Below, in pieces: positions 20,275 to 58,586 of a stretch of 64,000 bases of DNA. Location of the stretch: assembly GCF_040183065.1 (NCBI RefSeq), contig NW_027185501.1, positions 1,937,501-2,001,500 of the forward strand, read 5' to 3'. The position numbers and the translations under genes were made by a program. Numbering within the stretch: the stretch's first letter is position 1; each line of letters opens with the position of its first letter. The notes beneath the pieces were generated by a model. It worked only from the letters and a program-made list of their open reading frames with translations. It was not told the DNA's origin and ran no database searches. The DNA is from Periplaneta americana. Taxonomy: Eukaryota > Arthropoda > Insecta > Blattodea > Blattidae.

Positions 20275-20640
20275 TACATACAGACTAGTTATTATAATAT
20301 CTAGATTGTCTTTATCAGAATTTTTCTGTTTGGAACATGTTGGAGATTTGAAATTATTAATATCCTTTCTGCCAGCATTTTACCAGAACACGTCAATCGA
20401 GTGAGGGGCTGATACTGAGGAATGGAGTTATACTGAAAAGTTCACTACACCTTAATATATGCTATGAAGAATAGTAAAAAGCAGTGGAATATTTAGTACA
20501 GTCATATCTTTAAAGCGTAAATTATGACATTTTTATTTTCTTTTTATAGGAATCGTCCTCCACTAGGTTGCACAGCAGCCGAACGAGTAACCTGAGTAAA
20601 TGGGAGCGGGTGAGTAATTCTTCAATGCACATGGGCTAGG
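20275..20640 (+). repeat. Duplicated intron-exon-intron segment, copy A
   Basis: About 360 bp homologous to 48252-48620, sharing TAGTTATTATAATATCTAGA, GATTTGAAATTATTAATATC, ATATGCTATGAAGAATAGTA and TTTTCTTTTTATAG before the exon, then GTGAGTAAYTCTTCA after it. Conservation of both intron flanks around a different exon indicates tandem exon duplication rather than a dispersed transposon. Confidence 0.75.
20550..20609 (+). CDS. Host exon A of a duplicated exon pair (partial gene)
   Basis: A 60-nt exon preceded by a pyrimidine-rich acceptor (TTTTCTTTTTATAG) and followed by donor GTGAGTAA. Only one of three frames is open (phase 0) and reads ESSSTRLHSSRTSNLSKWER. It is a multiple of three and clearly GC-richer than its flanks. 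The partner exon 28 kb downstream (48530-48583) is also a multiple of three and open in the same phase, so either can be used or skipped without a frame change. Serine- and basic-rich, it looks like a flexible or regulatory insert. The gene is not recognised. It is short, so an exon-like coincidence is possible, but the shared flanks argue against that. Confidence 0.65.
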
Positions 20641-20669
20641 TTTAGGTTTGGTTAAATTTTAACTACTTG

Positions 20670-20738
20670 TATACTTTGTGTTCTGGTAGAGTGTAAGAGA
20701 AGGCCCTATGGCCTTAACTCTGACAGTATAACTAAAGA

Positions 20739-20807
<69 letters not shown>

Positions 20808-20808
20808 G
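20670..20808 (+). repeat. LINE 3' tail with (TTA)n
   Basis: CTGGTAGAGTGTAAGAGAAG, then GGCCTTAACTCTGACAG, form the near-hairpin seen at 1505-1560. About 22 TTA units follow (20739-20808). A severely 5'-truncated LINE insertion just downstream of exon A is the simplest reading. Confidence 0.6.
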
Positions 20809-21239
20809 CAAGTTGCTTACAGGGATGGGGACTGGGAATTCACCTGCATCGTTTTTCCTCGGAGACAGGGATGTCGATCAGCGCTCTCGAGCTGTGAACT
20901 GAGGCTTCATTCCTCCCTTACCGTGCAAAGGTTGAACACAGATAGCAGGCAGACCAGGCGAACACAGTGGGCCAGAATTCAAATCTAGCGGGGAAAAAAT
21001 TAAATAAGTATGGAATATAATTTTAAATGATTCTGTTTTACTAAATAATGATTTCTAAGAGCTTATGGAATAATAATAAGCCAGTATGGGATGTTATCCG
21101 TAGTAATGAGCTATCAGTGCGAGTTTGAATAACTATTTTCATGGAGCCTACTAGGTACTTAATTATATCACTTGTTCTTTTCGTGAACTTGTAGTTTCCA
21201 ATATTCTCTAATAGGAGGAGTCATCGTCTGCATCATCGT

Positions 21240-21305
21240 CCTCCTTATCTTCCTTCCTCTTTCTCTTCCTCCTCCTCCTCCTCCTCCTCCTCTTCCTCCT
21301 CTTTC
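21240..21305. repeat. TCC-rich polypyrimidine tract
   Basis: CTTCCTCCTCCTCC-type run of about 50 nt. It gives a spurious Gly/Glu/Arg-rich minus-strand frame. Confidence 0.8.
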
Positions 21306-21489
21306 AGCTGCAGCTGCTTCATCGTCCTTCCCTCTTGTCACACGCACGTCTTCACGTGTACTGTAAGTATGGAGTTCATTGAACATTTGTCGCACTTCAG
21401 CGGGAAAGAAATTATTCTTGTTTTCTTAAAACGGATAAATACTTGATATGATAGGATCATGAGTTGCAAGAAGATGATTTAAGATATCC

Positions 21490-22561
21490 TACATTGTTTG
21501 AATTCGAGAAAATTTTCTTGAATAATCTTCACAGTACTTTCTAATATTCTAATGTCTAGCTTCTTGGGTATACCTATAGGTAACACTGCACATTGTATTT
21601 TCGTTTGGTGACGTTATCTATTAAAATCTGTAATGCTTTCTCTGGTGTATATGGTCTTGGTAAAGTTGGACATTTATTATAGGCTATCATATACTTTGAT
21701 GCTCTTCTTGGAGTAATTTGTGGTGAATTGTTGTAGAACGTATGTTGCATCTCTTTTCCCTGAACCCCGCAAAGATAATTGAGTAGCTAGAACTAATTCA
21801 CTTTAAGAACGCTGATCTTTCAGAGACCGTACCCTACATGTTTAATTCTTGTTTTCATGCCACTTTCTTCAAACAATTTTTCAGGTCTATTTACTCCTGA
21901 AACGGATGGAATTAAATCCTTGGACATTTGACGAGTTTTTATTTATTGTAGAACTCTTTGGGGAAAATTGATATCCCTTTTTTTTTTAATTGGGGACACA
22001 TCAATTAAAGTGAAATTTTAATGGCAAGCAGGTAATTATCTCATGCCTCCATGTTAAATTTTGTACCAGTGCACTTTATTTGAACCATGTACCCAGCTTT
22101 GAAGCCTTTAGCACTGTGAATTGATAGTGTATTTAATTCCCCTGTTAAAAGTTTCAGGTTTTACTAAAATATTGACAATAATTTATTAATGGAGAGAAGA
22201 AAGAGTCTGGAGTAATCGGCCAGGCATGTGGGAAAAGTAGAGGGAAGGGAGGAGGATGTCCGTGGTCCATTGATTTCACTAACCATTCCGAATCTTTACG
22301 CAAAAACCTGTCCTCTTTCCTGGAGCAGTGTTTCAAGCGTTTTTCTAAATTACTTCTAAATGTGCGCACAACTTTTTCGACACACCGTATAATATCCTTG
22401 GAACAATGTTGTATTTCTAATTTTGTCACTACGAAATCAGTGAGAGTTTGAGCAGACCCTTTTTTAGTAGTCAACACGTCGTATAAGTCCAGCCGAGTCA
22501 CAGTGGACTGGATATGGGGATCTACCTCTGAGATAAAAATGAAAATATAAGAAAACGGCAA
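21490..22561 (-). pseudogene. Pseudogene of an unnamed multicopy arthropod protein, inside the hAT element
   Basis: The minus-strand N-terminal part is an open frame (22540-22154) reading VTRLDLYDVLTTKKGSAQTL and LEIQHCSKDIIRCVEKVVRT, then FRSNLEKRLKHCSRKEDRFL and DSEWLVKSMD. Downstream (about 21940-21540) are RPEKLFEESGMKTRIKHVG, ATQLSLRGSGKRDATYVLQQ, then KYMIAYNKCPTLPRPYTPEK and ALQILIDNVTKRKYN. I recognise this order (L-Y-x-V-L-x-x-K-K-G, CxRK, RPxKxF, PYTPEEAL) from a repeated, uncharacterised insect protein family. Frameshifts separate the parts, and stops interrupt the C-terminal one. Its place inside a hAT element suggests a passenger or nested copy. Function unknown. Confidence 0.6.
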
Positions 22562-23218
22562 GCAAACGCAAGTAAATCTTAACTTTTGTAAAAAAAAACT
22601 GTAAGGATTGCTTTATAATCTGATGTAGATTTTAAGGTGACACCTGGTGCAACATTTTTTATATCCCTAATTTAAAATGAAGTAAAGACATAATTCCGCA
22701 ATATTTTAAAGCTATGTTTAACGCATCCCTGGTGATATTTCACGTATACAATTAAAGTATGAATAATGGAAATAGGAAGTATGAACCTTCTGTTAACACT
22801 TCCATCACAGAAAGACACTTTTCTGCACATCAACAACACACAGATCACCCTCACATCACCCCCGCCATAAACCGTCTGGCGCTCGGCGCTCGGGTTCTGA
22901 CATTTAGCGACTTTTAGCAGCCAGCCCTGTTGGCATTTCGCTCGGTATAAATTGATGGCATGCAGATTTATGAAGATCAGTTTTAGTACTTCAAGACTAT
23001 ATAGCGAGAAAACGGTATTTGAAACATTAAAAAAATCAATATTTTCCAGCTAGATTTGAATTCTGGCCCACTGTGGAATGGTCGTAAACAAAAGCGAAAC
23101 CACTAGTGCGGCGGCTGGTAACTTTTATGCATCTTGCTAATTGATTAGGAGCTCATTTTAGATTTGCACTTGATGAAGTCTGATGAAGAAAGAATGTAGG
23201 CCTACAGAAGGATGCATA

Positions 23219-23220
23219 AC

Positions 23221-23275
<55 letters not shown>

Positions 23276-23276
23276 T
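23219..23276. repeat. (AAT)n microsatellite
   Basis: About 18 AAT units immediately downstream of the hAT transposase remnant. Confidence 0.9.
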
Positions 23277-23281
23277 TTTAT

Positions 23282-24260
23282 CTAATGGGTCATTTCATGA
23301 ATGTTGTTCGTTAGTGACAGAAAAAACCCTTTTTGTAAACATGCAAAATGATGCAATTCCTCCTTATAAATTTGGTTAATCCACATTTTAAGCTTGTCCA
23401 TGAAAACCTTGAGATCATGTATCACGTTAATTATGAGTCTGTCCTTACCTTGTAAGTTTATATTCAGGAAATTGAGATACGAAGTCAAATCCGTTAAAAC
23501 TGCGAAATCACAAATGCATTCCTCACTTGACAGTTCTGGAATTGGTTAATTGTGAGTTTCTAAGAATGTCTTCATTTCACTGCGAAGATGGAAGAACTTT
23601 TACAGCAATTACCAGACTAAGCCGTCTGACTTGGCAGTGGTAATAGTAATAGTTTGGTAATAGTTTCTGTTACAGATTAAAAAATATTGTCTCCTCAAAT
23701 TCGATCCTTTAGTGAAACGACATCGACAAGATCTTCTTTAACATTGAAATCTGAATAGATACCCCTTATGAATATAACAAGCTTCGTCGTGCCTTTGCGA
23801 TCGGTTCATCAAGACCTAGTGAGCAACAAGTAACAGTTTTTATTTTTGCTATCAATTGTCCCTCCAAGTTATCTCCCATCTACCATCCACACCCCATTTC
23901 TCGCATGCGCTCTGTAACAATATTGTGGGACAAACTTACAGATTTAAAAGCTTTAACGGTTTCCGGACACATTTCTTTTGCAACAGTTCTCGACAGTCTT
24001 TCACAAGTTCTCCTTCAGTAAATGGCTTTGAAGCCGTTGCAATTTTTCGCAAATTTTGTGGTTAGCACGAACAATGTTTGTTCTACTAACACCCGATGAT
24101 GATGGACAGTTTTCTGAATTTAACCTCGATTTAATTCCTCTACAGCCTTTTCACGAACGGAGCCGGTTAATTTCTCTGGTCCATAAGCTTCGGCATGTGT
24201 TGAATTAATATTATGATGGCTTATACCATCCAGATTCCTTTCTACATATAGAGCAATGTG
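23282..24260 (-). pseudogene. hAT transposase pseudogene (ZBED/GTF2IRD2-like group)
   Basis: Minus-strand blocks appear in the right order. STHAEAYGPEKLTGSVREKA and VEELNRG lie near 24210-24130. A SLSHNIVTERMRE block follows near 23930, then LEGQLIAKIKTVTCCSLGLD at about 23860. Next come IFIRGIYSDFNVKEDLVDVV at about 23780 and SEEECICDFAVLTDLTSYLN with LNINLQGKDRLIINVIHDLK at about 23520-23420. These match the hAT transposases related to vertebrate ZBED5/GTF2IRD2-type proteins. The catalytic C-terminal dimerisation region is missing. At least five stops or frameshifts are present. It explains the 20866-24404 termini. Confidence 0.8.
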
Positions 24261-24404
24261 CCTTCCGTCCTTTCAGATAAATAAATACTTATCTATCCAC
24301 ACACTATTGAAACGTCGTTGATATCCGTACCAGCCGCTGCTACAGCGAGGGCAGGCTGACTTCGTGGCAAACAGTACTAATGAGAGCGCTGTTCGACATC
24401 CCTG

Positions 24405-25439
24405 CTCCAAGAGATTTCCGCAGTTCATAAGCAACTGTGTGTTCGTTACAGGGCTCTCTTGCTTAGTCCTGTTGTCGAACTGGACGGCGTACTTAACCAA
24501 AGCGAACCCAACTTATTCCTTTATTAACATTTTACTAAAGATTTCAAGGGAGAAATATTATTTGGAGATATATGTTAATTGTGATAAATTTAAAGGCATA
24601 ATAATTTTACCATAAACATAATTTAGTTTTTGAAAGGAACTGCATGAATATGTTTTGAGTTGTATGTGGTTATTTTCATCCATTTCATAAATTTTAATGA
24701 ACTAGTACTTCACATATGGAACCAAGAAAAAGATCATGGATCTGGGAATACTTTGAAGAAACTAGCCCAGCCAAGACCAAATGTAAACTTCTAATCTAAG
24801 ACACGTCAGTTATAAGTGACCAAGATAACTAATTTAAGATCACATATTAAAAATCCGGCACTGACGTTAGTTGAAACCTGTGGTAATGGATGAGGAAGAT
24901 CCACCTAAAATAATCCATGTTTGCACGCAAGGAAGCTGACGAGGTTCATCTGACTGCAGTAGGATTGTGCTGCTTTCTTATACGAAGAAATCATTACAAT
25001 GAAATTTGAAAATACGCTTTGAGCAACTTTAATGATCTAAATACCTTATGAAATTAACGAATGAATTATCCAAATACATCAAATGAACGACGGCACCCTA
25101 TATAACGTTTGAATGTTAATAAAATCGTGCTTCTTATTATTTCGGTGTAGACTATTAACCGAAAATATAACGGCTTCAGGAGTAAAATACAATTTCTCGT
25201 GGTTAATACAGGAAGTCCCTCCACACTGCAGACCGCGGAATGTACTCAATTGCTGTTATGTGAGAAAACGTAAACTGTACACTCACCACAATCATAACAG
25301 ATGCTGGAGGTGTCTTCCTCGTTCTTGAAGGCACAGTTCGACTCTCATACACTAATTTGCAAACACTTTTACTAATTTTCCTTGCGTAATCGACTGCACA
25401 TAATTCATTATATTCGGCTTATGTTCATTGATTGTTAAA
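24405..25439. other. No gene recognised
   Basis: The first 40-50 bases continue the repeat interrupted by the hAT element (compare 50263-50300). The rest is unremarkable AT-rich DNA. Open frames at 24364-24615 and 25113-25328 lack motifs. Confidence 0.5.
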
Positions 25440-25880
25440 GATTATTATTACCATATACCGCAGATTTTCCCGCACCCCAGTGGGTAATCTTTTCCTAATC
25501 ACTTTCTTTTAATTCATGAACCACTATAATTTTATAGGGGTACAATTTTATTGAAGTTCGCTTCTTGCAGCTTTTTTGTGCTGTCCACTTAGAGATTCCG
25601 GCCTCTTGTGCTAATTTGCGCGTTGTTTTTGTAGGACTCCGCAACATTATAGCTATCCGAGATTTCATCAAGTTTTTCTATTGTTAGGCCTGGCACTTCT
25701 TGGTACATCCAAGTCTGACCCGGTTCCATGGAACTTATTGATCAAATCCGTACATAATCGTGATTTTGAATTAGGAAAACGCATACAAAAATTCTGTTTC
25801 ACATTTTCCGTAAACTTCTCACCTTTGGCGAAGAACGTATTGACCAAAAAGGCTCTTTCTTCATTAGAAAGCATTGTCAC
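25440..25880 (-). pseudogene. Mariner-type transposase N-terminal fragment (DUF4817-like helix-turn-helix)
   Basis: The 71-codon open part reads MLSNEERAFLVNTFFAKGEK, then KFHGTGSDLDVPRSARPN, a first helix-turn-helix module ending in the RSGRP-type linker. After a shift it continues KTTRKLAQEAGISKWTAQKS, a second helix-turn-helix, then YPYKIIVVHELKESD near 25500. The arrangement matches insect mariner-like transposases with a DUF4817-type start. The catalytic domain is absent, so it is a dead 5' fragment. Confidence 0.7.
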
Positions 25881-26301
25881 CAGCAGTCTTTAGCCACCGC
25901 TCACTCACAATCAGACTGCAGTGCACCCCGTCTGATGCCGTTAACCCTTTCTTACCTATAGATACCATATGGCAATAATTAACTTTATAGCATTTATATA
26001 CTTGTGTGTTACATATGAAGATAAATTTTGCTGGATAACTTCTATTTCAATACATTTTCATCAATATAGTTTTGTTTCAAATGTTGCCACTCCGTAACTT
26101 GGTCACTGAATTGGTCGTAATACAGTTATTTGTTTCAACATGGATTGCTTGTAAATTTAATTTGGGTTAGAAAGGGTTAACTAGCCAGCCCTCACACCCC
26201 GCTCAAGGGTGTGGCAACGACCCGGCCCGACTGATGCTACCAAGTTCCCGCAGTGCCAGAAGATATGAGCGATCTCTTGCCGCCATCTTGAGGTCATAAC
26301 A
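25881..26301. other. No gene recognised
   Basis: Mixed AT-rich DNA. A GC-richer stretch at 26185-26290 is open on the minus strand, but nothing is recognised. Confidence 0.45.
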
Positions 26302-26352
26302 AAAAGCAATGCTGATAGAATGCAATCGTAAAGACACCAGGATTTATTACTG
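26302..26352 (+). repeat. 51-bp direct repeat, copy 1
   Basis: AAAAGCAATGCTGATAGAAT... ending GGATTTATTACTG matches 26621-26672 with a few changes. The distance between starts is 319 bp. Confidence 0.7.
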
Positions 26353-26620
26353 CGTGTCATAGGAACAACCAAACATAAGCTGAAGAATGACGAGCAAAAC
26401 AAATAGACCTATAAATAGATAACTACACGTAATCACCAGCATTCCTGCAGATAATTAAAGATGTTAGCCTATGCTGTCAGTAGTCCTCGTGGATGAAGCC
26501 TATGCATGCTGTACGTGCATAATTCATCATCCGCACAATGGGCTTCCTGAAATATTTCAGTAACCGAGTGAGAACTTTAACTTGGTCTTGCACATCTTGC
26601 GGTCGTGGCAATAGCGGACG

Positions 26621-26672
26621 AAAAGCAATGCTGACAGAACGCAATGGCAAAACGCACTAGGATTCATTACTG
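26621..26672 (+). repeat. 51-bp direct repeat, copy 2
   Basis: AAAAGCAATGCTGACAGAAC... ending GGATTCATTACTG; partner of 26302-26352. Confidence 0.7.
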
Positions 26673-26701
26673 TAAACAGAGTGCGAATTAACGGGGCTTG
26701 G

Positions 26702-26776
26702 TTGCTTCATGAGTGATGCCTCATTGGTGTCACCTATGAGGTTCAAACCTGTCTTCGAACAGTTGATTAAACAATT
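26702..26776 (+). repeat. Dispersed repeat end (copy 1)
   Basis: TGAGGTTCAAACCTGTCTTC, then GAACAGTTGATTAAACAA, is shared with 49874-49947. It is a common short repeat of unknown class; a SINE or LTR-like end is possible. Confidence 0.5.
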
Positions 26777-26822
26777 TATAACAAAATTTATTGCCACGCG
26801 AAAGTTTGCCACAGAAAATAAC

Positions 26823-26950
26823 ACTTATCATTATTATTATTATTATTGTTATTATTATTATTGTTATTATTATTATTGTTATTATTATTATTGTTATTAT
26901 TATTATTATTGTTATTATTATTGTTATTATTATTATTATTGTTATTATTA

Positions 26951-27009
<59 letters not shown>
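26823..27009. repeat. Long interrupted (ATT)n tract
   Basis: About 187 bp of ATT units with regularly placed GTT variants, becoming pure toward the right end. It produces poly-Leu, poly-Ile and poly-Tyr frames that are not genes. Confidence 0.95.
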
Positions 27010-27010
<1 letters not shown>

Positions 27011-28209
27011 CTGGCCGGGACCCCCTCGAAGTTAGAGCCCTAGACAGCTGTCTACTTTGCTTAGGCAGAAGTTCGCCGCTGTTCCTATATAATGTTTATA
27101 TATTTCATATTTAACTACGTAGGCCTATTAATCTTTTGGTGCGGTACCGTATGATGTAATATTTTGTGTGTGTTGTTATTTTGATAAACTGATGTAATGA
27201 ATTTTTCTTCTAGTGTTTGTTTATCGTTATTTAGTATTTATTATGCTTATACTTGGCTTTTTTTACTTTAGTGTAATTCTGTTAACAAGAGTATAAATTT
27301 TAAAGGAAACTCAGCTCTTATAAAACATACAATTAAGTATATCGGTAACAGGTTTTTATATTCTGAGGTCGAAGTATAGATACCGGTACCTAAAACATCG
27401 GTAAATTTAGTTACATTATTTTATATTGGGTATAAGTTAATTAAACTTGTGGCAAACCAAAAAATTATATAATTTTAATGGCGAATAAATCTTTCTAGTT
27501 CAAAATATATGTTTCGGTTTACTGCCAGTACTACAGTACAGTATATGTTTAAAACTCTATAAATATAATTGTGCACTTTTCTTATATCGTATTTAACTTT
27601 TATTTTAATTTAATGTTTACTATTCCTAACCCATATTTATCCTGGTCGAGAGTAGTGCATGTAAATATGTGGCCTAGATAAAGCAAGAGATTTCTTTTAC
27701 AGTATATACTGCATTTGTCTTCGGTTTTCGTATTTTTATATTGGTACGGTATGTATTTTTTTTAAGTTAAACGTAATGTAGAGCACATTATATACTTAAT
27801 TTCATTTATGATGTTTATGTACAAGTCTATGGAATTCATAGCTCGTATTAAATTGAAAGAAATAGTTCAAGTTAACCCACAATATAAATAATTTCAATAT
27901 GCATACACGCACTTGGGAGGTAACATCATTGCAGCAACTGTGTTAGAAAGAGAGAGAGATTCCCTCACTAACATGGCGACGCGCGAACCTAGTGGCACGG
28001 CAATTTAACATTCGGTGTTTCCTCCATTTGATATAGAGCTCAATGGTCTGGGTTAAACTGTAAAACGTCTTTGGATGCTGCCAACATAATTGCAGTTACT
28101 TCGCTGCGCACTGCATTTGCCCCGTAGTTCAGTACACAGATCTTAATAGTAAAACTAGTTACGTTGTGAAATACTACTATGAAACTTTGAAAAATCGCTT
28201 AATCTGAAT
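27010..28209. other. No gene recognised
   Basis: About 1.2 kb of AT-rich sequence. A more balanced patch at 27930-28130 has no convincing open frame. Confidence 0.5.
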
Positions 28210-28401
28210 AGGGTAAACTGGGGTCTGTTGGACAGTCGGGCATGTTGGACACTCTGTACTTTAACGTGTTACCTCTCCACATTCTGCTAGAAGCCCCACT
28301 CGTGCCTACTTCCGTCATTGACTTCTAGCAGAATGTGGTGCCCACAAGTGGCGAGGTAACACGTTAACGTACAGAGTGTCCAACAGACCCTAGTTTACCC
28401 T
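28210..28401. mobile_element. Foldback (MITE-like) element, 192 bp
   Basis: The left end AGGGTAAACTGGGGTCTGTT is mirrored by the right end CAGACCCTAGTTTACCCT. Inner blocks ACACTCTGTAC and TAACGTGTTACCTC are mirrored as GAGGTAACACGTTA and GTACAGAGTGT. Arms are about 80 bp with a small left-arm insertion, and the loop is about 25 bp around TCATTGAC. No coding capacity. No clear target duplication. Confidence 0.75.
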
Positions 28402-29908
28402 ACATCAGAAATGTGAAGAAGATTACTTAGAAACGTTATCCTTTGTAAAGTAAGATACAAGAAGGAAACCTCAGAATATTAAATGTTCCTTATGAGTATT
28501 ATATTTAAGAGCGAATGTAATTTACCATGCCTGCTGAATTAGATAACTGTACACTTTAAGTTTGCAATGCGATAGCGTGCGGCAGGCTCAGCCATGCAGT
28601 CCTTCGCCTTACTAGTCTGCTCCTCGTTTCTTTCTCTTAACTCCGGGAAATCGTCCACTCCTCCCCAATCCCACCGAAACTGACTGAACATCGCCTTTCC
28701 CACTCCTGCTGTCCCCATCCAGGCTCTGTATAATATTTATATCTCTGGCGTTCATATGCAAAGAATTTATTGAAGGATAGATTTAAAAATAGATTTAACT
28801 TTTACAACTAACATGCTGATATAATTTTTAATTATATCCATGCCTTTAAGGAATTTGACACAATGCGTAATATGCTTTGTTGTCTCCTCCATAATCATCC
28901 AATGGCGCAGAAAGTCTTCAGTTGCAATCTCTCATTCGAACATGTTTTAAATGAATTTGGTTTGATGAAGAGGCAAGTGGGAATAGAATATTGATAACGT
29001 ATGACCTTGCCTATAAGTATAAAAATAAAGGCTAAAAGAAAGACACACATTTTATGCGTAATATTGCAAACAAACAATATCTTCGCAGGAATTAATTTTA
29101 TATGTGTTGGCACAATATGTGCTTGAACAGTGCACTGTAAATTCGTTAAGTAGGCCTATGTCCATTTTTCAACTTTATAAGATATTTCATCAATAATCAT
29201 TACTATTATCTTCGTCATTATCATCAGCATCGTTCACAACTTCAATGAAGGTGACCCGTTTCCCTGTCAAATGTTATCCATTTTAAAAATTCTTCAATAT
29301 ACTGTTTTGTTAACATATATTTCTTCGTGGAGGTTTCTCAGAGCACTAATTGTTCCGCAAGATAAATTGTTTGACTAGCTTTTTCCAAAATAGAAGCCGT
29401 AAGTTTCATAACATTAAATCTGACAACTTATGTGCATGCTTTGTGTAAATTATACAGATGTAAGTTCTATTCTGTTATTTCCCCTTCACGGACTGGAACT
29501 GTCCTCGCACGGAGGCCGGTCGGGTGGGCCCATTTTACTATGCGGAGGGCATGGCGCGTTCCACGTGTCTCACTTCCTGAGCCGAGAACTCCCTAGCGCC
29601 TACAGCCACCCCTCTCAGGTGGCGCAGGGCACGTTACCCTCTGCCACTCACTGTTTATAATACTGAAGTGATCACCACTATCGCTAGTATCTCTGATGGC
29701 AATTACGAAACTGTATGTACTGTACATACTAGGTAGGTCACTCTTCGTTCAGTCTAAACAACTCTGAATTACCATAGAAGAGCGTTTCTCAAAGTAGGCC
29801 TATATTGCCAGGATTCCGTGGTTTTAATTTTATTTTATACTTAGTGGATACTAGAAAAATATATAAAAATTTACGAAAATATGAATCAATAATAACATGA
29901 AACATCAG
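28402..29908. other. No gene recognised; GC-rich patch at 29480-29650
   Basis: Mostly AT-rich. The patch at about 29480-29650 is strikingly GC-rich and open for 76 codons, but has no splice-site framing, signal or motif that I recognise. It may be a fragment of a repeat. Confidence 0.45.
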
Positions 29909-29928
29909 CGATGATGATGATGATGATG

Positions 29929-29962
<34 letters not shown>
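29909..29962. repeat. (GAT)n(AAT)n microsatellite
   Basis: About six GAT units followed by about eleven AAT units. Confidence 0.85.
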
Positions 29963-29964
<2 letters not shown>

Positions 29965-30649
29965 GTTATGCCAATAATATGCGAATAATGGTCATCTGAA
30001 ACGGAAAATAATACTTATCGCTTTCATCACTGGATTCTCTGCGTATATGTCCATTAAAACAAAATACCGAAACAGACAAAATGCAGAAGTATAAATGAGA
30101 CTACAACTTTCCGCAATAAAAGCAGATTGCAGGCTTAAGAAACGAACACATTCGTCGTACTGAATAGAATAAAATTATTGAGATGCTAATTTTTAAATAC
30201 TAATAAATTACGTCTTACAATGATTCCGCGTTACACTTAAGGTTAAAAGGCGTTTCACGGTGAGAAAAGTTCGAGAAATACTGCCATAGAGAAAATAGTT
30301 TACGGATGTGTACACATGACAACCTAGATCGCGATTAGGTCGATAATCTCTACTGGTATTAGTGTTTAGAATTGATGAGAAGAACATAATTTATTTTGTG
30401 ATGGAATAGTCTATACATTCGCTTGTCGATGGTTGATCTTGCTAACGAAAGGAATACTGAAAAGCCGATGTGTTGAACGCAGGGCAGTACCCACCCTCCC
30501 TCTCTGCGTCTCGCCACGCAAAGAAAGACACGGGCAGTACCTTTCTGCATAAGCCTCTCCACGAGTTACCATGAGCCAAGTGGAGAGCATAGCGCTACCA
30601 CCAGCAACGAGTGACCACATATCCACGGCCCGCAGCAGACTCTCCATAG
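29963..30649. other. No gene recognised
   Basis: AT-rich to 30350, then a GC-richer stretch that may be the decayed 3' part of the SINE-like repeat following on the minus strand. Confidence 0.45.
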
Positions 30650-30865
30650 GAGCAAGTCCGAAACCTGGGAAAGGATGAAACAGGGAAGTGTAATTATGAC
30701 GGCAGGTGCAACGCCGGAAGTTACATAGCAATTCTGCTTGGATTGGTTGAGAAAGAAACCTAAACCAAGTAATTTGCCCCGGCCAGAATTTGAACCCGCG
30801 GTCGAATTAGATAGCAGATTACATAAAATCTGTCGCACTACCAGCATAACGAACGACAGATTGCA
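30650..30865 (-). mobile_element. tRNA-derived SINE, diverged
   Basis: On the minus strand a tRNA-like head (TTATGCTGGTAGTGCGACAG, then GCGGGTTCAAATTCTGGCC as box B) passes into GCCGGGGCAAATTACTTGGT and CTATGTAACTTCCGGCGTTG. The head-body junction GCCGGGGCAA...ACCTGGTT is one I recognise from a very common insect SINE. Boundaries are approximate. A 136-codon minus frame across it is coincidental. Confidence 0.6.
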
Positions 30866-30897
30866 ACGTGTACAGAGATTGTAACCACCGACTAATA

Positions 30898-38440: not shown

Positions 38441-38774
38441 ATTTGAAAATAAAATTGATGTGAGAGAAAACTAAACTTCAATCTGAGACTTGGCAGCATA
38501 GAAGTATTAAAATTTATGTTATTGTTAAGGTTCAGAGTGCTAATTCTCCATAAAACAAATTCTGTTTATATAAACTTGTTTATATTCACATACGAAGTCA
38601 CCCCACAGATCTAACATGCTACAGTGTGAGAATGGCCTGTACTGTGGGGCGGGACTGACACATTGGCTATTAAGTGGCTATCAAAGTGGGGTGAATTTGA
38701 TTTACCATAAATTATTTTTTCTAAGATTTTCTTACATTTTATTGAAATTTCAACAGGTTATAGAGAATCTAGAC

Positions 38775-40006
38775 CAGACGTCTCCAAAAGCGTACTCGCG
38801 AGTAAGCCCCTGAACGGAACCGAAACCAGTACGTAATGAGCGCTCTCCGCCTCACCCATCCCCACCTGTACTGTACTCAATGTTTATGCGTAAACGAAGA
38901 GCAGTGGCGGACTGCCATTATCATTGTGTTGGTCGGCGTGTTCCACCTTTTCACAATGACTTCTAATCATGGACGTAGTACATTGAAGGATGAATAGGAA
39001 GAGAATTTTTTTTTTTTTTTTGAGTTAGTGGGGAGAATGTGAAATGCTTAATTTGTTCGAAAATTCTTAAGGGTGTGTTAAAATTCAACATGCGCCGGCA
39101 ATACTCGACTCTTCACAAAGAATACCATACAATTACAGGCATGTTGGACATGTGAAAATAATTTATTTTGGGGCTATCTGTACGACTGTTGGTTATACAT
39201 AATAATCAATATATTACAATACGTTTATACTCAGCTCCGCATGACAAACATATGTTTTTCGTTTCATTTTGGGTGAAATGCGTAGGCCCACAAATATGTT
39301 GATACATATAAAACAAGAAAATACAAACACAAATCACACACGTGTCCTCAGTCTTAAACAGAAAAAGCTTCTTGCTAGCTGTGTTCTAGCTTGGAATATT
39401 GGAAATCAATAAAGCCCTTTACAGAAGCAGGATTTGTAAAATAGTGCATACAGGACGTTACTAAAATAAAAAAGTCAAAGTTGAAGAAAATTAAAATGTT
39501 TCCAATTACGGCTACAGATCAGAGAAGGAATTTCAAGATTGCAGATGTAATTGAATCTGAAGTCGAAACCACAATTAACAGTTTGTAGCTTACTCACTTG
39601 CATTGGACGAAAGCACAGATAGAAATGACAAAGCTCACCTAGCCAATTTCATCCGAGGAGTTAATGAACATTTTACTGTCTGAATGTCTTCTACATGTAA
39701 TTACAAAACACAACTGGAGAAGATCTTTTCAGACACTGAAAGGCACCATAGAACAGAAGAGGTTGAATTTGCAATGGCTTGTGTCAATAGCAACAGAAGG
39801 GGCTCCAGCTTCCTAGTATACCAAAATAATACACAAACGTATGATATTTCTTATTCTTTTGATATTATTTGTAAACTTAAACAGACCGTTGGCGTGATCC
39901 CCCACTGATAGCTCCCTTCTGTTGAGGTACGAGTCTCTCCCCCTTCCCTAGCCTTACAGCACACTGTGTTCGGCAGGTAGCATCGAGAGCTTTTTGGAGA
40001 CCTGTG
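38775..40006 (+). mobile_element. hAT element nested in the pogo-like element, perfect 8-bp target duplication
   Basis: The octamer ATCTAGAC is present on both sides (38767-38774 and 40007-40014). The termini are CAGACGTCTCCAAAAGC at left and GCTTTTTGGAGACCTGTG at right, inverted repeats with few mismatches. Length 1232 bp. Inside are a BED zinc-finger remnant and hAT transposase pieces on the + strand. The intact octamers make this the best-defined insertion in the window and younger than the pogo-like host element. Confidence 0.9.
39030..39835 (+). pseudogene. hAT transposase pseudogene with BED finger
   Basis: NVKCLICSKILKGVLKFNMR then RQYSTLHKEY near 39035-39125 is a BED-type zinc finger (C-x2-C ... 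H-x(n)-H, with one His reading Tyr). After a gap, blocks KMFPITATDQRR, SYSLALDESTD, LANFIRGVNEHFTV, NTTGEDLFRH/QTLKG and LNLQWLVSIATEGAPAF (39500-39835) follow in hAT order with several frameshifts and stops. The dimerisation domain is missing. Related to, but distinct from, the copy at 23282-24260. Confidence 0.75.
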
Positions 40007-40124
40007 ATCTAGACAATCACTTCGCTGTGTTGGAATTTTTTTTTTATCATTTTATAACACAATTTTCTTTTAAACTGCATCACATTAAAGAAAAAAAAAA
40101 GCCTATCAAAGTCACCCCAGTTTA

Positions 40125-40952
40125 TGGTAATTGCTATATGCCTAAGATTTAATTTTTCATAGTGTTCTGCTCAAGGGCAGATCTTTGACTGCAAACCCAG
40201 CATTCTTGAGTGTTTCCTATTTTCAGCTTTCTCTTAGTGAGCACAAAATGTATTATGATCCATGTATCTTAATGTTATCATGTTTAAGATATACGCGCTT
40301 TGTAAATTCGTAAACCATGTTCACTTTTCCACCTTCAAAACAATTTCATAATTATCATCATGTTCAACAACGTCACGTACTTCAAATCATCATTGTCATC
40401 ATCATCATCATCATCATCATCCATCATTCTGGAGAAAGTGGTGCGTGTTATACAGTATGTTAAAACTTTTGCATGACATAGTTTACGCCTTTTCCGAGGT
40501 GAATGGTCAATTATGTATGCGATTAATTTTTATTGTTTCAAAAAAGATTGTTACTCGTAAAACTCGTCCCACTCCCATTCTTCGAGGATTTTTCCGGTGG
40601 ACTTTCATAATATAAACGTATACAATGTCTGACAACTTGTGTATTGGTGCATTATCTTTTCGTTAATTTGATAGGAATAAGTTGCAATAAAAATCTGCAG
40701 CTCCATGTATGCAAGAATATATGTTAATGTATTTAAGAAAGTTGTATTTAATTAATTTAGTAATATAAATATGTCACATAGACTAATTATAGGCGGTATG
40801 CTACAAATTTTGGATTGTAACTGTTGGAAACGAAAATAATACGTTTATATGATTTATATTGGAATGCTGAAAAGGAAAATGTAGAATAATGTTACTAATT
40901 GGATCCAATTAAAAGTTTCTCTTCCACATATAATTATCATTTTATTTCAATA
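40125..40952. other. No gene recognised; short (ATC)n tract
   Basis: AT-rich sequence with about nine ATC units at 40391-40421. Nothing else recognised. Confidence 0.5.
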
Positions 40953-40985
40953 TTAGCCATACCCGTGCGCTTCGCTGCACGTCGT
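40953..40985 (-). repeat. Helitron-like 3' terminus candidate
   Basis: On the minus strand GTGCAGCGAAGCGCAC, a short hairpin, is followed by GGGTATGGCTAA and then T. A hairpin a few bases before CTRR, with T as the next host base, is the Helitron 3' end signature. Its 5' partner could be the TC-initial end at 48158, 7.2 kb away, but the span contains many other elements. Confidence 0.4.
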
Positions 40986-41061
40986 TATAAATAAATATCA
41001 TTGACTTAACTCTGCTACATTTCCAAATACAGCTCTGTTATTATTAATGAATAGGCCTGAT

Positions 41062-41065
41062 TAGC

Positions 41066-41118
<53 letters not shown>
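41062..41118. repeat. (TTA)n microsatellite
   Basis: About 18 uninterrupted units. Confidence 0.9.
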
Positions 41119-41368
41119 AGTTATACGTCGTTTGCTCCTGAAGTAATTTCAAAGTTGTGTTTAGAAGTATGATTGAAACTGTTATTGCCATGCAACACAC
41201 TCTGGAGTTGTTCAATTAATTCTATTTTTAAGCTTGGTATTACGACCTATCAGCGTCTGAAACAATATATTTGTAAGAGCAGAGGATTGTTCTCTCAACT
41301 GGAAAAGGGCTTTGTTACCAAGGTGTTGCAATGCCTTATATTATTTAAAACGTGTGTTGATAACGGAT

Positions 41369-43408
41369 GGGCTATTCCATCTCAAATCGACCGAAATATA
41401 GAGAAAATTGACCTTGCAATATTTAAATACAATGAAACTTTTTCTGTCCGTTGACAACTGTGATACAACGCTTTGTGCAAAGTTTGAGGCATCAGAACTT
41501 CATAGTGTTTAAATTAAAAATATTTAAATTTATCGTATTTTCATAAAACTAGCAAATTTAAACTGTTGCGGCTCCGAAACCCTTTCACTCAATGATCAAA
41601 ATCATGGTTTATTTTGATGCTGAGAAGTTAAAGTTTATATCGACATGTAAACAGTTTTTTCTTACTTTTTTTTATGGAAATGGAGAAATTTAGGTTTTTC
41701 TTCATTAAGACGCCTTTGCCGACGAAAAAATATTTTTAAAATATATGGTTAGATTCCGCATTGAAAGTACAAATAAACACATATTTTTTACTGGTGCAAC
41801 GTTGATAAGAAGGTATTGAAAATATCAAATAAAGAAAATAAATAGTACGCGCGTGAGCTAACCAGCCGACTGTGAGGCGGGAGCTAGCCGAGGGAAGCAA
41901 GGTCAGGAGACAAACACGTGAAGTGTCTAGCAGCGCATAGCTGGGCTAGTTTTATCACAGGTTTTCATAAACACAGGAGTAAAATGACGAAAGAAAGAAG
42001 ACTGCATCCAAACATTTACTCACCAAATGTTGCTATTTCTTGCAAAGGACTTCCACGCCCCCGTCTGCAGAAGAATATGTTTTTGTCACAAGTTTTGACT
42101 TGGAGACAGAAATGCAGGCATGTGTCGACAGAGTCCCTTGTACTGTGCGTGCGCGTTCGAATCTGGGCACCAGCTCCTTAGCCTTTTCTTCTTTTTCACC
42201 GGACTCACGCCATTCACAGTGAGTGTTTCGTTTAAAGTAGTGAGGGTTGTTTGTCAACACATTCCGTTTCGCTCTTACCCGATTCTTCATTACTACTGTT
42301 GCTGTTATTACCACTACTCTCTACTTGAACACTTTGAACACTACAAGCTGGCTGAACATTTTCTTCTAGGACTTCTCTTGATTGAACTGAGTTATCTAAA
42401 GAATGTGATTTATTTACTTTCGATCTGCAATATGTACATAATCGAATTAGCCTATGTTTTGGTACTTTTCAGGTAAGCCAAAATTTTCTGCAATCAAACA
42501 GGGTACTTTCCGAAGCCCTTTAACATTAACCCTTTTGTGACGCGTAAGTTGAAGGGGACTGAATTAGCGGTCACCTGAGTAAGATTTGTCCTCCATTTTA
42601 AGCAACCTGTGAAATAAATTTTGTTACAATGTAGAAAATGTTTATATTACGGAAGCGCTCACGAAAGACGCGCATTTAACTGAATAATTTGATTGATATT
42701 GTTTTGAAATACTTTATCTTACCGTAATGGTTTCACAAATTGCCTTAACGAACACTGATATTAATAAATACAAACTTGAAAATACTGGGTCACAACACTT
42801 GCACTTGTAAAATGCACACGCAACTTGGCTACTTTTGCTCGCGTACTGGAGACTAAACATGTCACACCGTTGTCTCAGAGAGTGGCATGACTCATCCTCC
42901 CAACGCTCACTTATCTTCATTACTCGGCCAGTGCGTGCGGTACTGCGCCGTTCAAGTCCAGGCTTGTGAAAATAATTTATTTAATACCCTCGAAGCTTAT
43001 TGTCGTACCACTAAGCAAAGAATGCCGAATCCCTCTTAATAATGTAAGGTTTCTTCTGAATATTTTTTTTTTTACATTTTTGCAAATGGGCAAAAAGCCT
43101 AAAAGTAAATAAAATCAGATTATCTGTCTCTCTGTATATAATAAAAATAAGAATTACTTCTTATCATAACCTACCAAATGTCAGCTTCAAAATGAGCTCT
43201 AGTTCAATGTTCTGCAGTAAATGGTTCCAGAGTTCTGAGCGCTGAAAGAGGCTTGTTTTTCTAAAATACGCTAAATTTGTCGCTGAACAGTAAGAAAACC
43301 GTTTGACTTTCGATAGTACTATATTTAGCACTTTCTATAAATAGGGAAAAAAATTAGAGTATAAAAAATGCGAGATTTTTTACTGATCGATTTCATATGG
43401 AATAGCTC
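41369..43408. mobile_element. Candidate DNA transposon with 22-bp inverted termini
   Basis: GGGCTATTCCATCTCAAATC (left, 41369) and its near reverse complement GATTTCATATGGAATAGCTC (right, ending 43408) face each other about 2 kb apart. They match a terminal motif I associate with a dispersed insect DNA repeat. The interior has a GC-richer core (41830-42250). A weak minus-strand coding trace near 42460-42250 reads LIRLCTYCRSKV, then a Ser/Asn/Glu-rich tail, with an in-frame stop. Superfamily unknown. Confidence 0.4.
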
Positions 43409-43629
43409 GGATGTACTAGTGTAATTTTTGTAATGGTTGTGTGGGATTTTGGGTTCAGAAATAACGTTTCCAGCAGCACAACATAATCCGTTTCATCCTT
43501 TACCCCATTTTGCATTTCATTTTACCTGTTTTACCTATTTGAATATCATTAAAATGAGCATAATCGATATTTAGATCGTAATGGTATGCTAACATACGTA
43601 TTGACATGCGTATTAACTCTCGACTACGC

Positions 43630-44273
43630 TGTCTAGTTCAGAGGAGCAAGCCGTAGACCGCCTGGCATATGCTAGCAGTCTGGATGGGGTCGACTGGGGA
43701 AGATCTCGACTAGTTATGCAGGACCTGTTCGTGTCTATCGCGACACTGGCCGACGGCACAGTCGTGCTTATGTGGCTCCAAACCCAAAGCAGGGGCGCAT
43801 TAGCGTCAAGTTCTGGGGTGGATGTCTGTAGACAGAGCAGGAATGCTACAGCGGATAGATGGGACTCTGCGCACGGACCAGTTTATTCATATTTCGCAGC
43901 ACGTGTTTTACCCTTCCGCCCGTGAACGTTATCCAGATGGACCATTATTGCTCCTGCAGGATAATTACGCAGTACACAAATCGATGGGCGTTCAGAGATA
44001 GTTGTCGGAGAGGCCAGAGATCGAAGAGATTGCTCTGCCTCCCCTTTCACCTGATATGAACGTTATCGAAAATGCGTGGGCCGACTAAAAGGAAGGACGC
44101 GCAAACTGATTGCAGACAGACCACCTGGGAATCGTGACGAGCTCTGGGAACATGTTCTTGACGCCTGGGAGGACATCGCCCAGGATCTGGACTATTTTCG
44201 GAGGCTCGTCGATTCCATGCATAGGCGAGCAGAAGTTGTCAGAGAAGCAGAAGGCTATTGGACAAAATATTAG
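43630..44273 (+). pseudogene. Tc1/mariner transposase pseudogene, related to the 17064 gene
   Basis: Pieces in three frames: REQAVDRLAYASSLDGVDWG, YAGPVRVYRDTGRRHSRAYV and APNPKQGRISVKFWGG, LQRIDGTLRTDQFIH, then LLLQDNYAVHKSMGVQR* and LPPLSPDMNVIENAWAD*. It closes PPGNRDELWEHVLDAWEDIA to a TAG at 44271-44273. The Asp-Glu spacing is again 35, and the C-terminal RNRDELW..V.DTWEDLA block parallels the intact gene at 17064-18035, so they share a subfamily. The N-terminal helix-turn-helix part is missing and at least three stops or shifts occur. Confidence 0.8.
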
Positions 44274-44320
44274 TAGTTCAGTAGCCAATTTTATTTCATT
44301 ATTTTTTGTATTTTTTTTAA

Positions 44321-44323
<3 letters not shown>

Positions 44324-44381
<58 letters not shown>
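44324..44381. repeat. (TA)n microsatellite
   Basis: About 26 TA units immediately downstream of the transposase remnant. Confidence 0.9.
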
Positions 44382-44384
<3 letters not shown>

Positions 44385-44502
44385 TCTTCCAAATAAATCT
44401 TCATTTTTAGGCCAAATATTAAGCCACATTCTGTTTTACTAAAGTGAAATTAAGTCCTGAGCTGTGACAATAAATATTACTGTCGTATACTTAAAAAAAA
44501 TT

Positions 44503-44585
44503 GCCTACCACGGGAATCGAACCTGCAACCGTCTACACGATAGCGGCGCGCCCTAAACACTTGTGCTATTCAAGGAAGGCGAAAA
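44503..44585 (-). repeat. tRNA-like (SINE head) segment
   Basis: On the minus strand TAGCACAAGTGTTTAGGGC (box A-like) and GCAGGTTCGATTCCCGT (T arm with box B) lie at about tRNA spacing. The anticodon arm is irregular. The element body, if any, is not recognised. Confidence 0.45.
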
Positions 44586-44747
44586 CAGTAACCAGCTGCG
44601 TGGCTGTTGTTCAACTGCACGGGTCCAAGGAATATGCACCGACGCTCTGGAGTGAACAAGGCTCTGAGATCAGCTACAAGGGTCGGTCCGGTTTTTTTGC
44701 CACCACTGCACATATGATATTTTCATGCAGGTATTCTGCGCTACTAC

Positions 44748-45312
44748 ATGAAGAAGGAAAAATATTATCTCCGGCACCGGGACTCGAACCCCTGTTTGCA
44801 ACTCTACGTGGTGACGCTTTATCCACTAAGCTACATCGGATTCCAATTCCGATACCGGATTGAATCCCTCTCAGTTTAAGTTCTACCTCTCAGTTTTCCC
44901 GGTGCCGGAGAGAATTGTTCTCTGTTCTATCCATCCTTCATCACAGGGTATCGCAGAATTCCTGCACGGAAATATCACATGTACTTCGGTACATCATAAT
45001 AATAATATGACATACCTAAGTAATTACTGATTCAAGACGGCGCTCATTCCTTCGGATCACAGCCACTTAGTCACTCGTATTGAGTGCACCTCTGTACATA
45101 GTGTGTTGGACATTGTGCCACTGTCACATATTCTGTGACACAGTACACGAGGGTAGGCCACCTAAGGGAAACTGAGAGGTGGAAATTAAACTGAGAGGAT
45201 TCAATTCGGTATCAGAATTGGGATCTGGTGTAGCTTAGTGAATAAAGCGTCAGCACGTAGAGCTGAAAACCCGAGTTCGAGTCCCGGTGCCGGAGAGAAT
45301 TTTTCTTTCATC
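44748..45312. mobile_element. Inverted pair of tRNA-derived SINEs forming a long palindrome
   Basis: The right copy (+, 45222-45303) reads GGTGTAGCTTAGTGAATAAA, anticodon stem TCAGC/GCTGA around ACGTAGA, then GAGTTCGAGTCCCGGTGCCG. The left copy (44850-44768) is the same head on the minus strand. Flanking arms AATTCCGATACCGGATTGAA (44847) and TTCAATTCGGTATCAGAATT (45199), plus CTCTCAGTTT... and its complement, extend the palindrome. Between them is a SINE-type tail (ACTTCGGTACATCATAATAA, about 44978). Two divergent pol III-like promoters point outward-to-inward across one foldback of about 565 bp. Confidence 0.7.
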
Positions 45313-45689
45313 AACACATCCTTAATCATATTTTCAAACAGCACAGGCCTGCCTGCCTAATGCTAACGTGCAAAATACTTTGTCACAACACACTATCCAA
45401 AATTATTAATATCCAACTCCTATTTATCCATCATATGAACGAAACATCACGTCCACTAGCAGGGAGCGTGATGCTCGGTAGAGCAGGGCACAATAATCTA
45501 TATAGCGTACAGCTCGACCGGGAGGCTCAACAGTCCATTTCAGTAAGTCTGTTAGAGTGGCTGTGTTGACATTAGATTGCGTGTTGTTCTTCTGATTGTG
45601 TTAGTGAAGTGTTTAGATTAGCTCGTTCACATAGCACCACAGAAATTTAAAATTTACATTAAAGCAAATGATTTCTATGTTAGAAACTT
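45313..45689. other. No gene recognised
   Basis: Contains a 69-codon open frame (45360-45569) with no motif. Confidence 0.45.
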
Positions 45690-46040
45690 ATCGGAAAGGT
45701 AATAAGACGATTTGCAAGAAGATTTTGTAATGTTACTGCTCCACGTGTCATCACTATACGCAACCTCGTTAAACATTTAAAGATACTGGGTCAATATTGA
45801 ATAAGAGCGGCAAAACATCACTGGTGTACTTACTGAGGAAAAACTGGATGAAATATGAGAAAGATTGGATCACACCTCTTAAAAATATTTCCGTCATCTC
45901 GCGCAATAAATTGGAGTCTCTAAAATCACAGCATATGAAGCCATTAAAATCCTTAAATCCTTAAAAGATATCAGAGATGTGTTGCAGCAGAAGGTCATCA
46001 TTTCCAACACCTCTTATATTCCAGGTAAGTTCAGTAATAA
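45690..46040 (+). pseudogene. Mariner-type transposase fragment with large internal deletion
   Basis: Pieces include FCNVTAPRVITIRNLVKHL, then TGSILNKSGKTS, TEEKLDEI and AYEAIKILKS-like blocks, an N-terminal double helix-turn-helix region. At about 45975-46015 the sequence jumps to RCVAAEGHHFQHLL, the usual mariner/Tc1 C-terminal tail (x-C-x-x-x-x-G-x-H-F-x-H-L-L). The catalytic core is deleted. Several stops. Confidence 0.6.
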
Positions 46041-47731
46041 TAAAACTGCCGAGCGTATGCGAGACGGTTTGCCGCGTATTGCATGGCCTTCGTGCCGGTC
46101 GCGCGTCATCTACATTTTGTAGGCGAATGCTCTCTAGTATACGAGTATGCCGTTCCTAGCCTATTTGCCTCTACTGAACGAGACGCAAGATTTATTGATG
46201 TCCAACCTGCATAACAAAATGAGATGAAACTTCGATATGCTCTCACACCACAACGCAATTAAATCAATGAAAATAACCTCAGAATTATAACAGACTGCAG
46301 AGACGATGCGACCACTGAGAAGGGTAATAGGCAAGCGTTCTGCACAGCGCACTATACTTCATGTTGAGTAATGTTAGCACAAGAACATCTCCAGCACGAT
46401 TTCTGGTGTGCAGGCACCCGGAACCTTCAACTCCATCCCTTTGCGCGCGAGATCTTATGTACTCTCCTTGTTATGGCCTAATTTTATGAGAAAGAACAAT
46501 TAACAATAAATATCTCACTTTTAACGTCATACAATACCTGATGGAACTATGAAGTAATTACATAATTAAAATACGACTATTTGGCCCAGGGAGCATCTTT
46601 TTTGGTGCAAGAATAATTCGTTTAACATGTTTCTAAAAGTTTTGAATACATTCCTTAACAATCCATTCCAAGCCGGTAAGAATATGGAGTGGATTGTGTA
46701 CGAAGGTAAATTTTGTTGGCCTCATTGCGCATGTTTGTTTACGTAAATAAAAACACATTGAAGTGAACATGGTACATAAGTACCACTTTAAGAACCACAG
46801 GAAACAAATGTGAGTAGGCCTACATAATGAGAAAAGAACGCCATTTCACAGCAGTTTGTAAAACGACTCGGATAATTTGGAAAATTAACAGCTCCAGTGA
46901 GCTCTAAGATGCAAACACTAATTTTTACTCAAATTCTTTTTATTTTTGGTGCAGATGAATTTGGTCTACTTGCCTTTTACCACAACATTCGTAAAAATAC
47001 GATTATATTCCATAGACAAAAAAAATGAAATCTAGTAAAAAGTAATATTTTACATGGACCAAATAAAGTTTAAATACAGTATACATTACCGTACGCTACT
47101 CAAATAAATAATTAAGCAATAAAAATATGTACCGTTATCTTACTGAATAATTAATAGCCTGTTTAATATGTATGTGTCGCGTGTACAATTCCATCCCTGA
47201 CTATCATTGGTTCATAAATACACGCACCGCAAAGCAGACGTAACATTTTATTACCTTCTAATATCATTTAATTTAACTACATATCGCTCATTCACCGTTA
47301 GTTTCAACAGGCTGTCAAGTTTTCTGCGCGTAAGAGTCTGTTTTAATCGTACCTTATCCTGCATTTGTGCCCAATCCTCGATTCATTCTGGAGCTTCTGT
47401 AGTGACGTAAAGTCTACGTATGTCCATCTGAAGGAACTATACTTTCCAATGATGAAAGAATTATTCAAATCCATTACATAATTTCATAAGATTGTCTCAT
47501 ACAAGCATACAAACACACTCTCTTTATAATAATATTTAGTAGAGCCTATATTATAATCACATATAGCCTAAATATTATTTGAATAAAAAGAGTTATTAAA
47601 TGAATATTAATCCGATTGTTGTCCATGGCCGCTTTAATTAAATGCAGCCATTAGCTTTATCTTTTTTACTCGTATAATCTGAAACGGCAATGACATACAA
47701 AGCAGTGTTATATTAAAACTAATGTATGTCG
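46041..47731. other. No gene recognised
   Basis: AT-rich DNA with scattered open frames of 60-67 codons that carry no motif. Confidence 0.5.
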
Positions 47732-48158
47732 TTAAATACCAGTCCTATCAAACTATTACACAGAATAAAACTTATCGGAAATCATTTTTAAAGAAACCTT
47801 TATCATGCAAAATTTTGCATGAAAATCAATAATAAGGGAGATATTTCGATTTATTTAATTCAGGTCCCCTTATAACGCCCTTTTAAATAAAGTATTTTGA
47901 ATGTCATATAGCCTAAAATCTAACTTACATCGAACTTAAGTTATATTCCACTTACCATATAAATCGGTTCAGCCATTATCGCGTGGAAAGGTAACAAACA
48001 TCCAGGCAGACAGACAGATATACAAACATAAATTTCAAACAAGCCATTTTCGGTTTCAGGATGGTTAATTGCAGATGTTATCACCAATTATCTTTGGAAA
48101 AGAAAAAATTACCAGAAAAAATTTCTTTTACAGATTTATTAGGCCTATTAGTATAGAT
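47732..48158 (-). repeat. Dispersed repeat with a Helitron-like 5' terminus (copy 2)
   Basis: Partner of 16211-16622, sharing TTTAATTCAGG, CAGCCATTATCGCGTGGAAA, GGTAACAAACATCCAGGCAG and TTTCAGGATGGTTAATT. On the minus strand it begins TCTATACTAATAGGCC. It ends about 95 bp before the duplicated exon segment. Confidence 0.55.
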
Positions 48159-48251
48159 GTCGTTATGGTAACAATAACTGCTCGGTACCTGGTAACTCCA
48201 CTGGCAGCCAGAGGGCATATGGCTCCCTTCCCCCTCTGTCCTATATACAAG

Positions 48252-48620
48252 TGTACAGGCTAGTTATTATAATATCTAGATTGTCTGTGTCAGAAATTTT
48301 TTGTCTTGGACATGTTGGGGATTTGAAATTATTAATATCCTTCCAGCCAGCTATTTACCAGAATACATCACTCGAGTAAGGGACTATATTGAGTGTAACG
48401 CAACTCAGTTATACTAAAAAGAACACTAAAGCTTAATATATGCTATGAAGAATAGTAAAAGTCATTGGAATATTAGTATAGCCATATCTTTCAAGCGTAA
48501 ACTATTAATAGTTTATTTTCTTTTTATAGGAGCTGTTGTCTGAGAGCGAGGCCAGCCTCTCCAGCAGCTGGTCCAGCATCAAGGTGAGTAACTCTTCAGT
48601 GTACACAGATTAGAGTGCAC
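48252..48620 (+). repeat. Duplicated intron-exon-intron segment, copy B
   Basis: Homologous to 20275-20640 across both introns. Copy B keeps the same acceptor tract and donor, with scattered substitutions and short indels, indicating an old duplication under selection at the splice sites. Confidence 0.75.
48530..48583 (+). CDS. Host exon B of a duplicated exon pair (partial gene)
   Basis: A 54-nt exon between TTTTCTTTTTATAG and GTGAGTAAC. Phase 0 is open: ELLSESEASLSSSWSSIK. GC content is far above the flanking introns, as for a real coding exon. Against exon A it begins with the same Glu, is Ser-rich, and has a Trp near the end, but otherwise differs, as mutually exclusive exons often do. 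Length difference is two codons (18 against 20). Neighbouring constitutive exons are not in the window and the gene is not recognised. Several Ser residues in acidic context could be phosphorylation sites (inference). Confidence 0.7.

Positions 48621-58584: not shown

Positions 58585-58586
<2 letters not shown>
58243..58586. other. No gene recognised
   Basis: AT-rich. Open frames here are shadows of the neighbouring repeat. Confidence 0.45.

Follow-up and report, generated by a model that had tools for sequence, protein, structure and literature searches.

Tandemly duplicated phase-0 mini-exons of a putative long-intron multicopy gene in Periplaneta americana, and a probable exchange of exon cassettes between its copies

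In the multicopy three-finger toxin genes of snakes, introns are >85% identical and segments of exons have been switched to unrelated sequence, a pattern termed ASSET; the switched segments lie within exons, and the report states the mechanism as unknown (PMC2474615). The Dscam arrays of Daphnia are compact, with introns of ~100-200 b, and no gene conversion between their exons was found in that study (PMC3236188). The bicycle genes of aphids are present in many copies and keep their exon structure for longer than their coding sequence (PMC9168663). Here we describe two short exons, A and B, in a 64,000-nt stretch of the Periplaneta americana genome (assembly GCF_040183065.1, contig NW_027185501.1; C20:1937501-2001500 in our scaffold numbering), hereafter the window. 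We consider it probable (roughly 0.74) that these and related exons, together called X, are coding exons in phase 0 that have been duplicated in tandem near the 3′ end of a long-intron multicopy gene, and that their cassettes can be moved by non-allelic gene conversion. As in ASSET, paralogous introns are alike and exon sequences unrelated; unlike there, the difference extends to whole exons and their splice sites, and the arms of one exchange can be read; no descent is implied. The likeness to Dscam arrays lies in tandem, in-phase duplicated exons, most simply of one gene, with divergent products, but neighbouring X exons are 16-32 kb apart and conversion is suggested by junctions. With the bicycle genes the cockroach family has in common a multicopy state in an insect and an exon structure more lasting than the coding sequence (no sequence relation is claimed); what sets it apart is that its introns have also remained alike and that only two of its exon positions are known. 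Titles and the opening lines of abstracts named no earlier report of such a cockroach exon family, which is no proof of absence.

Exons A and B lie in homologous segments on the + strand of the window (82.5% identity over 280 columns, E=2e-77, BLAST; Table 1). An earlier model-made note on this DNA, the sequence-only reading, had described two such segments of about 360 bp on the same strand, with homologous introns around exons of 60 and 54 nt. The segments, their orientation and the exons were confirmed; the extent was not, as segment B is homologous to a paralog from position 48177 onward. The homology of A breaks off near 20272, beyond which the window copy (A_C20) is unlike the C copy with which it was compared (C_C26). 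Upstream of the exons, 235 of 267 aligned intron columns are identical (88%), and downstream 17 of the first 20 nt match. Between the exons themselves, alignment scores were at shuffle level (p 0.44 and 0.54 under two scorings), and the drop in identity from high to none coincides with the splice sites. The claim of divergent peptides beside conserved introns was thus upheld, as was that of raised guanine-cytosine (GC) content (0.55 and 0.61, against 0.36 for the window). Phase 0 had been called the only clearly usable phase of both exons; this is true of exon A, whereas exon B is open in phase 0 and in one other.

A third copy of the segment was sought within the 64-kb window, and none was found. 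Scanning both strands of the window for splice sites, GC and an open frame recovered exons A and B alone. A looser exon scan of 264 kb returned A, B and two further X exons (C and B′). Its other hits were T-rich, near positions 21308 and 74095, apart from one on the minus strand; candidate 21308-21362 was dropped because it sits within a terminal inverted repeat (TIR) transposon. Among frames of at least 110 aa in the 264-kb region (low-complexity excluded), no host gene was recognised by eye, and a cysteine-pattern search of this region gave nothing convincing. Immediately before the window start lie 5000 N (C20:1932501-1937500), which could hide an upstream exon.

Table 1 Coordinates of the features around exons A and B in the window (GC3, GC content at third codon positions)
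Feature	Position	Strand	Remarks
3′ end of the intron preceding exon A, including the acceptor; shared block	20272..20549	+	
Exon A	20550..20609	+	60 nt, ESSSTRLHSSRTSNLSKWER, phase 0, GC 0.55, GC3 0.70
Donor GTGAGTAA and A-type intron start, as far as the transposon	20610..20962	+	
TIR DNA transposon after exon A	20963..23075	.	~2.1 kb; inverted ends identical over 27 b, similar over up to 39 b
3′ end of the intron preceding exon B	48177..48529	+	Homologous to the D paralog throughout, to A over 48254-48529
Exon B	48530..48583	+	54 nt, ELLSESEASLSSSWSSIK, phase 0, GC 0.61, GC3 0.94
Donor GTGAGTAA and short conserved intron start after exon B	48584..48618	+	24/35 nt as in A

Exon A is under purifying selection and is therefore very likely coding, in agreement with the earlier proposal of coding mini-exons. 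Compared with its counterpart on scaffold C4 (A_C4), exon A shows 15 nt differences, nine of them at third positions, and 4 amino acid changes where 9.4 were expected (p=0.00035); between A_C20 and A_C15a, 4 of 4 changes are synonymous (p=0.004), the tests sharing sequences and thus not being independent. No selection signal was detected in three comparisons with 2-3 differences, two of them of B exons (p 0.15-0.44).

The genome (3.23 Gb, 91 scaffolds) was searched with the 366-b segment. The 40 matches scored, of 157 candidates, comprised 5 A, 7 C (one of them at an A position), 12 B or B′, 1 A-like (on C4), 4 D/E and 11 copies of a terminal exon, Y; copies were grouped by their exons where these were read, and by identity and position where they were not. 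Five loci, i.e. C20 (the window), C26, C21, C15a (at 177.7 Mb) and C13, have their four exons on one strand in the order A-B-C-B′, and a sixth, C15b (at 181.3 Mb), has C-B-C-B′. Tandem duplication, as proposed earlier, is therefore seen at six loci, each with four adjacent X exons of the same direction before a terminal Y. All 24 of the A, B and C exons read (a count that leaves out the B copy L016 on C21) are open in phase 0 and have AG/GT borders. Of the seven copies of exon C (EASSNRCNSSFSSWED, 48 nt), six are identical and one differs by a single base. On C4, C2, C7 and C14, paralogs were found with one X exon each. The peptides of the D/E exons have tyrosine motifs, and a likeness to receptor tails is conceivable but speculative. 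The sequence-only reading had regarded many further copies elsewhere as the mark of a dispersed repeat; the scored matches are indeed numerous, but all of them lie in multi-exon locus copies and paralogs. A related block, H (L067-L069, L071), has only the upstream intron half in common with the D cassette (76-77%), and no exon was seen in it by eye.

Exon Y was searched separately, and 40 of 3548 candidates were scored. It lies downstream of X and in the same direction, at 14 kb (C4), 21 kb (C2), 38 kb (C14) and 61 kb (C7) in the paralogs, and at 130-142 kb (C26, C21, both C15 loci, C13) or 407 kb (C20) at the arrays. Its phase-0 endings, each followed by a stop, are (i) ...GRLLKIIHC at C7; (ii) ...GRLQKIVHC at C14, with a different stop codon; (iii) ...GRLLRTITHC at C2, with an in-frame 3-nt insertion; (iv) AISEDRVMKVIRVC at C15, C26 and C13; and (v) AISEDRAMKIIRFC at C4. 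The stop position is common to the Y paralogs, and two different stop codons are used. Among the candidates scored, X and Y stand at 4:1 at five array loci, and C26 has two Y. With four X per Y, the simplest view is that the X exons of an array stand in tandem within a single gene and do not each belong to a gene of their own. The family appears to be larger than the six arrays, since 17 further places hold a full or partial F-type terminal-exon region at 94-97% identity (on C12, C13, C15, C18-C22, C26 and C3), many of them on small scaffolds.

Exons and flanks of this family are in conflict as to their age. Exon A differs from A_C4 at 15 of 60 sites (25%), against 37 of 444 in the flanks (8%, p=0.0004), despite the constraint on the exon. 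Wherever a locus holds both A and C (five cases), the ~280 b upstream of the two reach 96-97% identity, C13 being the one exception (82.9%, mostly owing to gaps), whereas the A and C exons differ at 18-20 of 48 aligned positions plus a 12-nt gap (22/48 under another scoring), and A_C4 and C at 17 of 48 with a 12-nt gap in the alignment. The flanks now found around the exons look younger than the exons, which would explain why exons differ while introns agree.

One exchange is apparently captured at the A position of C15b (pA_C15b). It is 99.3% identical to the window upstream (11 mismatches in 1780) and 98.0% downstream (26 mismatches in 1432), yet it carries exon C, which differs from exon A at 18 of 48 positions plus a 12-nt gap (Fisher 3e-21 for the contrast of exon and flank). 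The transposon after exon A in the window has a 3-bp target duplication, GAA, and A_C26 and A_C21 represent the empty site. A transposon of the same TIR family lies 74 b after the exon start in the C copy on C20, with the duplication TAG or ATAG, and the remaining C copies read have the same left junction. At pA_C15b the left transposon junction is of the C type. The transposon body is 98% identical to the window copy and differs by 4-6% from the six C copies with which it was compared, and the right junction is of the A type (98.4% over 701 b, where the C copy reaches 92% over 286 b); this A-type junction had been predicted before the fetched pA_C15b sequence was inspected, and the prediction held. 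The most fitting interpretation of this locus is a cassette swap by non-allelic gene conversion. The cassette difference is directly visible with both its junctions; that conversion produced it, and in which direction, we infer. In the simplest account, the conversion tract would run from the shared intron block into the transposon, with exon C and 25 b taking the place of exon A and ~350 b. The TIR transposon, present at both sites, would account for the arms of the swap. The C20 and C15b loci may be recent duplicates, or else two haplotypes of a single locus; in the latter case, the swap would be an allelic difference.

Under the favoured explanation, the gene would have long introns and several near-identical copies, with the X exons near the 3′ (C-terminal) end and Y as the last exon. 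The flanks would be either young duplicates or homogenised between copies, in which case homogenisation would affect the introns generally. Non-allelic gene conversion would carry exon cassettes from site to site; on one side its arm would be the shared intron block, apparently the left homology arm common to A, C and B cassettes (Table 1), and on the other, in the case of C15b, the transposon. The effect of the cassettes would be a more varied C-terminal region of the protein, perhaps through alternative inclusion. Alternative splicing of the exons would be plausible, and their mutual exclusivity has no support; since the 24 A, B and C exons are symmetric and in phase 0, joint inclusion of X exons would be just as possible.

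Conserved introns beside non-conserved exons are often ascribed to positive selection. Ordinary tandem duplication followed by very strong selection on the exons, without conversion, would fit exons far more divergent than their flanks, and a similar pattern is reported for venom genes (PMC2474615); but third-position changes between A and A_C4 (9/15) also far exceed the intron level, exon C is nearly invariant among its copies, and C15b has mixed junctions, so that this explanation seems to us quite improbable. The sequence-only reading had instead suggested alternative, perhaps mutually exclusive, exons, and had pointed to RNA pairing in which the conserved intron blocks might compete. Such a mechanism would suit exons that lie in tandem, share phase 0 and have strong splice sites, as a common reading phase permits exchange. 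Against it, the blocks do not exceed other intron stretches in conservation (67-76% in both, between the D locus on C7 and C20) and fold like shuffles (z 0.15 and 0.20), the exons are 28 kb apart, and sequences of the window that are complementary to the blocks match them weakly (E 0.019 or worse, bar a self-palindrome-like AT stretch; no other docking search was made). A role of the blocks as splicing-control RNA was rejected on the grounds of conservation and folding, and their conservation no longer serves as a sign of splicing control; they appear to be ordinary paralogous intron, without special constraint or unusual RNA fold. Selection of exons by RNA pairing is accordingly unlikely.

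A dispersed transposable element with a spliceable variable insert would account for many copies across many scaffolds. It is hardly credible given the fixed order and similar spacing of the copies, a C-terminal exon at least 130 kb away, homology that extends into other intron stretches, purifying selection on exon A, and block borders that vary between copy pairs (border target duplications were not systematically searched). The earlier view that the segments are not a transposon is borne out by order, spacing and borders. The copies might also be decayed, non-expressed segmental duplicates, in line with several broken paralogous exons and with three of the six arrays on small scaffolds; we give this little credence, as all 24 A, B and C exons read are intact and exon A is under purifying selection.

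Several observations weigh against the explanation by tandem coding exons and conversion. Other exons of the gene were not found in the 264-kb scans, and Pfam and PDB searches with the exon peptides gave nothing. Some paralogous exons have decayed (D_C6 is frameshifted, at 98 nt, and I_C5 is without a donor), two of nine Y copies read are broken (F_C15 without a stop, F_C3 frameshifted), and C9 has two Y with no X found among the 40 of 3548 candidates scored. The B copies, with 2-3 differences, are without significant constraint (p 0.15-0.42), and a tree built from the upstream block gives little resolution, with A and C not strongly separated (0 starred branches). Some of the loci on C20 (3.2 Mb), C21 (4.1 Mb) and C26 (1.3 Mb) may be alternative haplotypes, because these scaffolds are small. 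In the PAMFEO1_priV1 assembly, 74 remaining contigs were left unplaced according to its description (PMC12774602), and the three scaffolds are small enough that they may be among them.

Other elements were noted in and near the window. These comprise (i) an uninterrupted 339-aa Tc1/mariner-type transposase frame at 17067-18083 (-) (DDE_3, E=1.4e-12); (ii) reverse transcriptase frames (RVT_1) at 51804-52991, 56819-57571 and 58485-60416 (all -), probably of elements without long terminal repeats (non-LTR); (iii) a PIF1-like helicase fragment at 12341-12781 (-), slightly below the Pfam cut-off and perhaps from a Helitron; and (iv) a tRNA match of 46 bits at 45224-45295 (+), beside the inverted repeat pair 44749-44899/45166-45313, which may be akin to a short interspersed element (SINE). 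A further pair, 16152-16623/47673-48158, is 78% identical and probably represents a dispersed element with no relation to the exons. Two minisatellites lie outside the window, one at C20:2060898-2064332 (33-b unit, ~104 copies, long open frames) and one at C20:2094227-2101500 (49-b unit, ~147 copies), the latter reaching the end of the examined stretch. A match to Saprospiraceae (L001) was discarded, as it covers 23-24 bases only with nothing around it, and viral contigs gave 0 exact matches to one 23-b pattern.

Possibly, though this broader picture is tentative, the loci form an ampliconic family in which whole mini-exons serve as exchangeable C-terminal cassettes, moved between tandem positions and between loci by non-allelic gene conversion. 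Near-identical copies, possibly alleles (C20 versus C15b), would then carry different peptides, and the alike introns would act as recombination arms. If this is true, exchangeable C-terminal mini-exon cassettes would provide a concrete mechanism for exon segment switching, and a testable one, as the swap can be read base by base at both junctions. The family also carries a warning: conserved intron blocks next to divergent exons need not imply splicing control.

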